A stretch of DNA of 43,624 nt, taken from IMG/VR virus record IMGVR_UViG_3300049460_000071, positions 1 to 43,624 of that record. The stretch is one strand, 5' to 3'. The position numbers were made by a program, and so were the translations under genes. Each line of letters starts with the position of its first letter. Within the stretch, counting starts at the first letter, position 1. This DNA is from a virus. The notes beneath the pieces are model-generated. The model was not told the origin of the DNA and made no database searches. It saw only the letters and a list, made by a program, of their open reading frames with translations. Below are positions 40,427 to 43,624 of the stretch, piece by piece.

Positions 40427-40434
40427 GTAGGGCT
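40417..40434. terminator. Hairpin between convergent late and accessory genes
   Basis: AGCCCT and AGGGCT pair around TTGAGT. It lies at the end of the late operon and at the stop of the convergent minus-strand gene. T runs on either side are weak (TATTTGG rightward, CTTTGAC leftward), so its activity is uncertain. Confidence 0.5.
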
Positions 40435-40615
40435 ATTTGGAACTTTTAATTATTTCATTCACTGCATCTTCAAAAGACTCCAAGTCTTTTGCTTTCATAA
40501 AGTCTTCTATAAAAATTATATTTTCAGGTAAAAACCATATTTCTTTTGCTTTCATTCCTTGTTCTTTTTTCTTGTTACGTTCTACTTTTTTTCTTTCTGC
40601 TGATGTTTGAGCCAT
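40433..40615 (-). CDS. Ribbon-helix-helix regulator (antitoxin- or Aca-like)
   Basis: A 60-residue protein. The N-terminal 22 residues are very basic (SAERKKVERNKKKEQGMKAK). Then a strand (KEIWFLP), a helix (ENIIFIEDFMKAKD), a turn and a second helix (EDAVNEIIKS) give the ribbon-helix-helix pattern. The start overlaps the upstream stop as TAATG, so it is translationally coupled to the acidic protein. It probably binds the palindrome at 41066-41079 and represses its own operon. Confidence 0.68.
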   Translation of the reverse strand: MAQTSAERKKVERNKKKEQGMKAKEIWFLPENIIFIEDFMKAKDLESFEDAVNEIIKSSK

Positions 40616-41031
40616 TACCAGTTTTCCTCAATCTCAGTTTCAACTTCTTCGCTTTTGCGATGTCCTAAAAACTCTACTTTGCCATTAACAACTAACCATC
40701 CGTCATTTTCTTCAACTGCATCAAAACCTAGTTCAGTAGCAATCAAAGCGCGTAATTGCTGGTTCTCGAAATATGTGCCATCTTGTTCTGCATCATCACA
40801 ATCAATAACAAAGCTAGGATGAGTTTCCAAAAAATCAGGATTATTTTCTAAATATTCTTCAATATCAGATTTCTCACAGATATTTTCAAACTCCACAGTG
40901 TAGATATAGTCCCCATAATCCCCGTTAGCAGTTAGGGCAATGTTTTCAGAAGTAAAAAGACCAGTATAATCGCCATGTCCTTTGATGATTTCTTTTAGTT
41001 CTTGATTGTTAGTAGCATGATAAGTTTTCAT
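40615..41031 (-). CDS. Acidic protein of unknown function, first gene of a two-gene operon
   Basis: A 138-residue protein. The ATG at 41031 follows AAGGAG, while the ATG at 41061 has none. It is strongly acidic, about 33 Asp/Glu against 8 Lys/Arg. It begins MKTYHATNNQELKEIIKGHG and has TSENIALTANGDYGDYIYTV and TYFENQQLRALIATELGFDA. The YHAT start, central Tyr and late Glu loosely recall ADP-ribosyltransferase-like folds (H-Y-E), but this is weak. Alternatives are an antitoxin-neutralised toxin, an anti-CRISPR or a DNA-mimic antirestriction protein. The partner regulator and operator suggest tight control. Confidence 0.6.
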   Translation of the reverse strand: MKTYHATNNQELKEIIKGHGDYTGLFTSENIALTANGDYGDYIYTVEFENICEKSDIEEYLENNPDFLETHPSFVIDCDDAEQDGTYFENQQLRALIATELGFDAVEENDGWLVVNGKVEFLGHRKSEEVETEIEENW

Positions 41032-41065
41032 TGCATTGCTCCTTGGGTATGAATTAATCATATAA

Positions 41066-41079
41066 TGTGACTAGTCACA
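41066..41079. promoter_or_regulatory. Palindromic operator of the acidic/RHH operon
   Basis: TGTGACTAGTCACA is a perfect 14-bp palindrome 35 bp upstream of the acidic-protein start. On the minus strand it lies between possible promoter boxes TTCTTG or TTGCAT and TTATAT or TATATG, where a bound repressor would block polymerase. Confidence 0.7.
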
Positions 41080-41142
41080 ATGCAAGAACTATTTCCCATT
41101 ATCCTCAATTTTTTTATCATTTAATAAAAGGAGAGCGCTTTA

Positions 41143-41333
41143 ATGTCTACACAGCTAATCAAGATCTTTAAAAATGGAGCACTAACTTTGTAGATTTACC
41201 AGCCGAGCTTGATAAAAATGGAGAGGTGACAAAAATTTATGACTATAGTGGCAATGAATTAAAAATTAATTTCCTTCGAGATGAAGTTTATTATAAGGGC
41301 ATCTGGTGCCAGTTTCAGAGGAAACAGCACTAA
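41143..41333 (+). pseudogene. Small gene broken by a one-base slip
   Basis: An ATG at 41143 with AAAAGGAGAG upstream reads MSTQLIKIFKNGALTL and stops. The -1 frame (41172-41333) carries a coherent continuation, WSTNFVDLPAELDKNGEVTK, IYDYSGNELKINFLRDEVYY and KGIWCQFQRKQH. One extra A in the A5 tract at 41170-41174 would join them into a 63-residue protein. It overlaps the end of the integrase gene (convergent) by 4 bp. Either a mutation, a sequencing error or phase variation explains it; I see no programmed slippery site in the right phase. Function unknown. Confidence 0.7.
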
Positions 41334-42553
41334 TCCGCCCAACTGTCTACAATATCTGCCCAGTCTTGCATCATTATTCTACGCTCATCTAAATAGAGGG
41401 CATGGTTATAAGTATCTCTAATTTTGTTTTTATCTACATGAGCCAGCTGCAATTCAATATGATCAGAAGGGTAGCCAAGTCCATGCAAAATGGTTGAAGC
41501 AGTAGCACGAAAATCATGTGCAGTCAGATCATCAAAACCCATTGATGCAAGAGCACTATTAATTGAAGACTTATTCATAAGCTTATTTAGATTAAACACA
41601 CTAGAGAAGACATACTTTCCAGTTCCGGTCTGTGAGAGTTGATCAATCAATATAGCCTTCACTTGTTTGGACATAGGAATGATATGCTCCCTATTCATTT
41701 TGATATTCCGTTGCCCTGAATTTAGTTGCTCCTTTGAAGCTGGAGGGATCCTAATTAGATCATCTTCAAAATTCATCCACTCCCATTGAAGTCGGGTAAC
41801 TTCAACAGATCTGAGCATCGAATAAATTAGAATCAAAATACTATTTTTAGTAGTTGCAGCACCTTTATAATTTGTAAATCTATCCCAAAAAACACCTTTT
41901 TCTACATCAGACATAGGGCGCGCACCTTCTTTAGCAGGTCGCTCAATTGTATTTTTAAGTGCCGAGATAGGATTTTGCTCACAACGCGATGTGGCAATTG
42001 CATAATCAAGGATTTGACTAGTAATTTGTCTATTTAAAATTGCGGTCGCTTCACCAGTACCAAAGTTAGATTGTTTTCTTATTCTGGCTACAGTCTTTTT
42101 TTGCATCTGAAGAACATCAAATGCTGTAATATTTTTAATGTCTTTATTGCCGAGACTTGGAAAAAGGTCTTTCTCGAATGCAGTTTCAACAGCACGTCGA
42201 TAACTAACTGAACGCTTTTCTTTTCTGCCTTCATACCATTCTTTGGCGATATTTTTAAAGAGACATATCTCTGTTAATAGAGCTTTAGCCTTATCTTCCT
42301 GTCTTTGCTGAGAAGGATCTAAATTTTGGCTAAGAAGAGTTTTTTGATCTTGGGCTAGCTTTCTTGCTTGCGCCAATGTCACAATGGGATACTCACCAAG
42401 ACTTATCATCTTGGCAGCTCCAAGAAACCGATAACGGAAGCGCCAAAACTTTGAGCCATTCGTACGGACCTCAATACAAAGCCCCGCTTGGTCAGCAACA
42501 CGATAAGACTTATCTTTTGGTTTTAATTGCTTAATTTTAGTGTCATTGAGCAT
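41330..42553 (-). CDS. int: Tyrosine recombinase/integrase (DUF4102 type)
   Basis: A 407-residue protein that inserts and excises the prophage. The N-terminal arm-binding domain (LNDTKIKQLKPKDKSYRVAD, then FRYRFLGAAKMISLGEYPIV) is DUF4102, as in P4-type integrases. A core-binding domain follows (about 100-190). The catalytic domain has the first arginine in YSMLRSVEVTRLQWE, then HDFRATASTILHGLG (H-x-x-R), LAHVDKN and the nucleophile tyrosine in DTYNHALYLDERR. No good ribosome binding site precedes the ATG. An arm-type half site (42558-42566) lies just upstream, so integrase may control its own transcription. Confidence 0.95.
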   Translation of the reverse strand: MLNDTKIKQLKPKDKSYRVADQAGLCIEVRTNGSKFWRFRYRFLGAAKMISLGEYPIVTLAQARKLAQDQKTLLSQNLDPSQQRQEDKAKALLTEICLFKNIAKEWYEGRKEKRSVSYRRAVETAFEKDLFPSLGNKDIKNITAFDVLQMQKKTVARIRKQSNFGTGEATAILNRQITSQILDYAIATSRCEQNPISALKNTIERPAKEGARPMSDVEKGVFWDRFTNYKGAATTKNSILILIYSMLRSVEVTRLQWEWMNFEDDLIRIPPASKEQLNSGQRNIKMNREHIIPMSKQVKAILIDQLSQTGTGKYVFSSVFNLNKLMNKSSINSALASMGFDDLTAHDFRATASTILHGLGYPSDHIELQLAHVDKNKIRDTYNHALYLDERRIMMQDWADIVDSWAD

Positions 42554-43042: not shown

Positions 43043-43624
43043 TTAAATCGCACGAGTGTTGTAAATCAGCCAGTCTAGAACCTCTCCAGATAAATGTTCA
43101 GCTAGTCTTTCTTGAACCATTTGGTGATAAGCATTTAGCCAGTCTTTCTCTTCATTGTTAAGCATATCAACAACGATACAGTCTAAATGGATTGGGCAAA
43201 GCGTAAGTGTTTCAAACTCCAAAAACTCACCATAAGTTTTTTCAAACCCTGAGTGAAGTCTGTTTGCAACCAGATTTTCAATACGAATGCCGTATTGTCC
43301 TTCATGGTATAAGCCCGGCTCGTTAGAAAGGATCATGCCCGCGCGTAGTTTGCTGTAGGCATGAATAGGCGCGTAATAAGAAAGAACTTGCGGCCCTTCA
43401 TGAACATTAAGCGCAAAGCCTACGCCGTGACCTGTTCCGTGTCGATAATCTAAACCATGTTGCCATAAGGTATGCCGACAAATTGAATCGAGTAGAGGAG
43501 CAGCTAAACCTTCTGGATAAATCGTTTTGGCCAAAGCAATATGACACTTTAAAACCAAGGTATAGTCACGTTTTTGTGGTTGCGTTGGCGTGCCTACTGG
43601 AACTACACGAGTAATATCTGTTGT
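43043..43624 (-). CDS. Xaa-Pro aminopeptidase (M24 family), C-terminal part, host gene
   Basis: This is the C-terminal 193 residues of a pita-bread metallopeptidase that removes N-terminal residues before proline. The gene enters from the right edge. Visible are the TDITR metal-site strand, the HGTGHGVG motif, SNEPGLY with a metal-binding glutamate, and GIRIENL. The final part (ETLTLCPIHLDCIVVDMLNN, WLNAYHQMVQERLAEHLSG) is the M24 C-terminal extension. It belongs to the host chromosome and lies outside attR. Confidence 0.92.
   Translation of the reverse strand, partial: TTDITRVVPVGTPTQPQKRDYTLVLKCHIALAKTIYPEGLAAPLLDSICRHTLWQHGLDYRHGTGHGVGFALNVHEGPQVLSYYAPIHAYSKLRAGMILSNEPGLYHEGQYGIRIENLVANRLHSGFEKTYGEFLEFETLTLCPIHLDCIVVDMLNNEEKDWLNAYHQMVQERLAEHLSGEVLDWLIYNTRAI

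Follow-up and report, generated by a model that had tools for sequence, protein, structure and literature searches.

The locus at positions 40433-41079 of the window (the whole 43,624-nucleotide stretch of viral DNA that was analysed, IMG/VR record IMGVR_UViG_3300049460_000071) is very probably an acr-aca operon carried by a temperate phage of Acinetobacter, encoding an AcrIF11-type enzyme and a ribbon-helix-helix (RHH)-like autorepressor. This reading, one of three offered by an earlier note on the same DNA, was strongly supported by the AcrIF11 profile, model and fold matches of the first protein, by a self-targeting lysogen of A. rathckeae carrying a related locus, and by the canonical AcrIF11 genes found next to relatives of the second protein. 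Both claimed open reading frames were present and shared one base, in agreement with the claimed TAATG coupling. The pair was located as described, with the lysis genes on one side and the integrase on the other, and in the direction opposite to the late genes. The features of the locus were as follows:

40615-41031, minus strand: acr gene, 138 aa, predicted divergent AcrIF11-type ADP-ribosyltransferase (NCBIfam, profile and fold matches; invariant H5, F26 and D110)
40433-40615, minus strand: aca-like gene, 60 aa, RHH-like putative autorepressor, TAATG-coupled to acr (PHROG 536; operator covariation)
41066-41079, no strand assigned: putative operator palindrome TGTGACTAGTCACA, 14 bp (same site or variants in relatives)
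41080-41085, minus strand: probable -35 element TTGCAT, TTGACA in A. rathckeae (sequence reading; inferred by comparison)
41057-41062, minus strand: probable -10 element TATGAT (sequence reading)
41039-41044, minus strand: acr ribosome-binding site AAGGAG (sequence reading; kept in close relatives)

The probable -35 and -10 elements of the acr promoter were separated by 17 bases, and the TTGCAT element was absent from the list produced by a promoter consensus scan. Between the acr promoter and the integrase, a small gene (41143-41336, plus strand) was observed that seems to be interrupted by a premature stop codon; an intact relative of 84 aa was present at L103 204-458. Past the integrase (41330-42553), an open reading frame at 43043-43558 (minus strand) resembled, by sequence reading only, the C-terminal part of a host peptidase, and the right end of the window is therefore probably bacterial flank.

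The 138-aa protein, previously assigned to no known family, was placed in the AcrIF11 group by NCBIfam, profile and fold comparison, through which alone the relationship surfaced; a Pfam search returned nothing relevant, and solved structures searched with the single sequence yielded no match. The NCBIfam model NF052490 (AcrIF11) matched the protein with an E value of 5.8e-8 and 33.7 bits, below the equivalog cut-off of 50 bits, and the A. rathckeae copy scored 22.3 bits, as compared with 144-151 bits for the canonical Acinetobacter AcrIF11 copies. The canonical genes were located as follows:

L105 2573-2995: canonical AcrIF11 gene
L107 2576-2998: canonical AcrIF11 gene
L112 2573-2995: canonical AcrIF11 gene
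L114, L115 and L116: further canonical AcrIF11 genes

A profile built from the relatives of the 138-aa protein matched the AcrIF11 structures 6KYF (E 1.8e-17) and 8DWQ (E 5.2e-6). For the AlphaFold model (pLDDT 81.6), whose comparison with ADP-ribosyltransferases and known anti-CRISPRs had been proposed, the best match by Foldseek was AcrIF11 6KYF (rank 1, E 1.4e-6, TM 0.64), the sole PDB match with E < 0.001. Residues H5, F26 and D110 were invariant across all aligned relatives, and D110 was aligned with the D of the DEHG loop, that is, with AcrIF11 D115, the mutation of which abolishes activity (PMC12421852). The protein shares with AcrIF11Pae1 (PDB 6KYF) and AcrIF11Pae2 (PDB 8DWQ) the fold and the conserved His, Phe and catalytic Asp positions, and it is likewise a small acidic protein of a phage or plasmid, encoded upstream of a regulator gene. 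It differs from them in its low identity (~20% to 6KYF), in its score below the NCBIfam cut-off, in the active-site set read from the alignment (H-F-Y-D instead of the published H-F-H-D, the third residue being Y and not H) and in a shorter catalytic loop, in which the acidic E116 beside D115 of AcrIF11 has no counterpart in the alignment. By homology and predicted fold, the 138-aa protein is a divergent AcrIF11-type enzyme that falls below the strict equivalog score, and its enzymatic activity and exact target would be those of AcrIF11. In the IMG/VR viral contigs, 14 relatives with 75-94% identity were found, together with a copy at 90% in an A. baumannii plasmid record and remote relatives in Erwinia phage phiEt88, Moraxella phages and enterobacterial plasmids. 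AcrF11, of the window branch or of the canonical one, is already on record from in silico studies of A. baumannii (PMC11035748, PMC8389025).

The 60-aa protein had been called an RHH protein; its context and the pattern of its sequence make this likely, and no library or fold search proved it. The residues ERK, G20, W27 and E37 were common to the protein and its relatives in a pattern that fits a ribbon followed by two helices, and all 17 aligned members of the regulator family matched PHROG 536 ('transcriptional regulator'). Searches of NCBIfam and Pfam gave no helix-turn-helix (HTH) family match. In the monomer model, helices were predicted at 30-43 and 48-59 and a helix stood at the expected strand position; the fold search with this model yielded no significant match (E above 4), as may be expected when an obligate dimer is modelled as a monomer. 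The partner is most likely, as judged above all from the comparison of related loci, an RHH-like autoregulator of the acr operon, which would bind DNA and repress.

The TAATG overlap of acr and regulator was found in the window, in close relatives and in A. rathckeae. RHH relatives of the window type (RHH-A) were located directly downstream of canonical AcrIF11 in L105, L107, L112 and G067 (L106 being nearly identical), and the canonical genes of G021 and G032 were accompanied by a second RHH type and by a 153-aa HTH protein with another promoter sequence, respectively. This second, unrelated RHH-type regulator also occurred with the acr lineage of the window (L012, L013), the enterobacterial acr relatives had small HTH partners and other promoter sequences, and in L014 an intact acr gene stood without an adjoining regulator. 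Like Aca1 to Aca12, the 60-aa protein is small and encoded second in an acr operon whose promoter contains an inverted-repeat operator, and its family is swapped between acr lineages as in other acr-aca pairs (PMC9410906); unlike them, it is RHH-like. According to two papers, all known Aca families are of the helix-turn-helix class (PMC9410906, PMC9765179), and a literature search of open-access papers found no RHH Aca. The 60-aa protein thus appears Aca-like in role, yet outside the described Aca families.

The palindrome TGTGACTAGTCACA at 41066-41079 was perfect over 14 bp, as claimed. An equally good palindrome was obtained in ~10% of the shuffles of the 120-base upstream region, so that it is not significant alone; its reality is indicated by its conserved position, since the site recurred in relatives at ~32-37 bases from the acr start although the surrounding DNA differed. 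In the window and in relatives it was located between -35-like and -10-like elements, and the A. rathckeae operator TGTGACTAGTCAC lay between TTGACA and TAATAT. As the operator fills the -35/-10 spacer, its occupation should block RNA polymerase and would thus result in repression. TGTGAC-TA-GTCAC went with RHH-A in A. rathckeae as in the window branch, and likewise ahead of the canonical AcrIF11 of G067, and relatives were accompanied by TGTGACATGTCAC in L009-L011, TGTGACCGCTCACA in G166, TGTGAGCGGTCACA in L105 and TGTGAGAACTCACA in L107 and L112. With the different RHH type, TGTCGTAGCTACGACA, TGTCGTAGCCACGACA and TGTCGGGTGTACGACA were found in L012, L013 and G021, respectively, and this second type and its operators occurred under both acr lineages. 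Among the sequences compared, operator identity tracks the type of regulator and not the acr lineage, across two acr lineages. A distant RHH relative was also observed at L113 2744-3159, where it follows an unrelated 85-aa gene and GTGACTAGTCAC lies upstream; this kind of operator may thus predate anti-CRISPR loci and extend beyond them.

The occurrence of the acr genes was surveyed in 176 Acinetobacter genomes by genus-wide searches, which were used in place of a mixed-alignment profile scan of genome contigs that gave only four loci. The window acr branch was found in two genomes (G001, which is A. rathckeae, and G166) and canonical AcrIF11 in three (G021, G032 and G067). A Csy1 match was present in all five AcrIF11-positive genomes, against 40 of the 176 overall (P ~5e-4, ignoring kinship). 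A. rathckeae had a complete type I-F cas operon (Cas3f, a divergent Csy1, Csy2, Csy3, Csy4 and Cas1f) and a CRISPR array of 38 spacers, of which 12 matched its own acr prophage perfectly and one more differed from it at one position, each of these sites having a CC PAM; further self-sites with three mismatches each were found, two with CC and one with GC. The targeted prophage carried acr, the TAATG-joined RHH gene and the operator between the lysis genes and the integrase. Among the other ~1,950 Acinetobacter spacers, just one matched the same prophage region, with four mismatches. Three self-spacers (0-2 mismatches, CC PAM, within ~26 kb of AcrIF11) were found in each of G067 and G021, which carry canonical AcrIF11, and no convincing self-target was found for the G166 spacers in the contig pieces searched. 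Because a viable self-targeting lysogen needs a blocked CRISPR system, acr is the obvious candidate inhibitor; the self-targeting could also be tolerated if the cas operon were silent or if the prophage encoded a further inhibitor. Against the window phage, other Acinetobacter spacers gave 11 imperfect matches (<=6 mismatches), 6 of them with a CC PAM, as compared with none in two shuffled controls, which shows only that this type of phage is targeted by type I-F systems.

The Csy1 asparagine that AcrIF11 modifies (in P. aeruginosa N250, with which the motif GGTKPQN ends) was kept in the Acinetobacter Csy1 proteins compared, including the divergent ones (L037 and four divergent Csy1 were taken in). 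Function of the acr family is supported indirectly, in its kin, by the self-targeting lysogens and by this conserved residue. The very divergent Csy1 proteins of four Acinetobacter genomes (387-397 aa) were scarcely recognised by the Csy1 model and kept the PAM-loop motif; they were located as follows:

L039 9902-11074: divergent Csy1
L040 8855-10018: divergent Csy1
L041 9266-10450: divergent Csy1
L042 9671-10864: divergent Csy1

AcrIF11 is known to act by ADP-ribosylation of Csy1 (PMC12421852). In the proposed mechanism, the promoter would be free on infection and the 138-aa enzyme would be made; using NAD, it would ADP-ribosylate the Asn with which Cas8f/Csy1 reads the PAM (Pseudomonas aeruginosa N250), so that phage DNA would no longer be bound by the type I-F surveillance complex. 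The translationally coupled RHH protein would then accumulate, bind the palindrome between the -35 and -10 elements and turn the operon down to a maintenance level.

A second reading of the earlier note, a reverse-order type II toxin-antitoxin pair in which an ADP-ribosyltransferase toxin is neutralised by an autoregulating RHH antitoxin, is disfavoured and is considered very unlikely. The two-gene operon, the ADP-ribosyltransferase fold, the RHH-like second gene and the operator in the promoter would all fit it, as would a weak match of one regulator relative to MazE-like antitoxins (E 0.01); the 60-aa protein also resembles RHH antitoxins in its size, its RHH-like character and its likely autoregulation through a palindrome. 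Here, in contrast to such antitoxins, the partner is an AcrIF11-type enzyme and the regulator is exchangeable and dispensable among the relatives, the same acr lineage occurring with two unrelated RHH types, its distant members with HTH partners and the L014 copy with no adjoining regulator. Moreover, regulator and operator were swapped jointly and independently of the acr lineage, which is predicted for an autorepressor and is not expected of an antitoxin tied to one toxin. The characterised AcrIF11 is specific for Csy1 (PMC12421852), and the occurrence of the family tracks type I-F systems and self-targeting.

An AcrIF11-fold enzyme under the same autoregulation might instead have changed its target to another host defence or another host protein, in keeping with its distance from the characterised AcrIF11 (20% identity to 6KYF), the altered details of its active site and the missed equivalog cut-off. 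This is judged unlikely, since A. rathckeae combines this acr branch with intact type I-F cas genes and with 12 spacers of its own that match the acr prophage perfectly, and since its Csy1 retains the target Asn. The strong acidity of the protein (pI 4.07; 33 D/E against 8 K/R), on which the earlier note was correct, had also been taken there as a sign of a DNA mimic, whose negative charge would block DNA-binding defence proteins. That is extremely improbable, because the fold and the invariant catalytic residues are those of an ADP-ribosyltransferase, and acidity is a trait of the AcrIF11 family, the canonical relative in L105 being nearly as acidic (pI 4.26).

Apart from the acr operons, relatives of the RHH regulator were found beside type I-F repeat-like hairpins, which were located within ~220 bases upstream of the RHH gene in eight IMG/VR loci (L100-L103 and L108-L111, some nearly identical); the window itself had no such repeat hairpins, and no such repeat-like match was found in 477 kb of shuffled controls. 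In the four loci scanned (L100, L102, L103 and L109), a promoter (TTGCCA-17-TATATT, extended -10) was directed from the start of the RHH gene to the repeats, at whose distal end a terminator-like hairpin was predicted on that strand, and the folding of the L109 hairpin RNA gave z = -6.7. The divergent promoters and repeat-like hairpins were located as follows:

L100 1699-1835: divergent promoter and repeat-like hairpins by the RHH gene
L102 2871-3007: divergent promoter and repeat-like hairpins by the RHH gene
L103 1155-1267: divergent promoter and repeat-like hairpins by the RHH gene
L109 2193-2362: divergent promoter and repeat-like hairpins by the RHH gene

These divergent hairpins resemble the RNA anti-CRISPRs (Racr; PMC10651486), and differ from those solitary repeat units in that usually two or three hairpins were found per predicted transcript; by this analogy they are candidate RNA anti-CRISPRs with their own regulator. 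That the RHH family marks the type I-F anti-CRISPR loci of Acinetobacter phages, controlling two AcrIF11 lineages via TGTGAC-type operators and, in other phages, adjoining a divergently transcribed RNA anti-CRISPR made of tandem type I-F repeat hairpins, is a proposition for which we consider the chances evenly balanced. Two small conserved genes (~95 and ~71 aa), observed upstream of the RHH gene and hairpins, are candidate anti-defence genes and were located as follows:

L103 549-1066: small conserved gene pair
L108 530-1047: small conserved gene pair
L109 1593-2104: small conserved gene pair
L111 1282-1793: small conserved gene pair

In addition, one IMG/VR contig was observed to carry both an RHH-bearing prophage and a type I-F CRISPR array with a 60-base period (L104 1-550). 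A helicase-like gene was observed after the acr locus in G166 (L044 7874-9865, 663 aa) and in L014, and is possibly an accessory defence gene at the same phage position.

The locus had been put forward as an undescribed system, which does not hold for the acr family, a known one, and stands for the class of regulator, new for the AcrIF11 family. What appears to be new is the divergent branch of acr, the regulator of the RHH class with its covarying operators and the link to repeat-derived RNAs. Phage therapy and CRISPR immunity are under active study in Acinetobacter, and two hypothetical genes have here been turned into a testable type I-F anti-CRISPR operon of Acinetobacter prophages. The regulator swaps show that acr loci can exchange their control modules, and the association with I-F repeat hairpins suggests that protein and RNA anti-CRISPRs share one regulator family. 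As current Aca mining seeks helix-turn-helix proteins, an Aca of the RHH type would be missed; if the reading is true, the RHH family could guide the finding of protein and RNA anti-CRISPRs that HTH-based searches miss.
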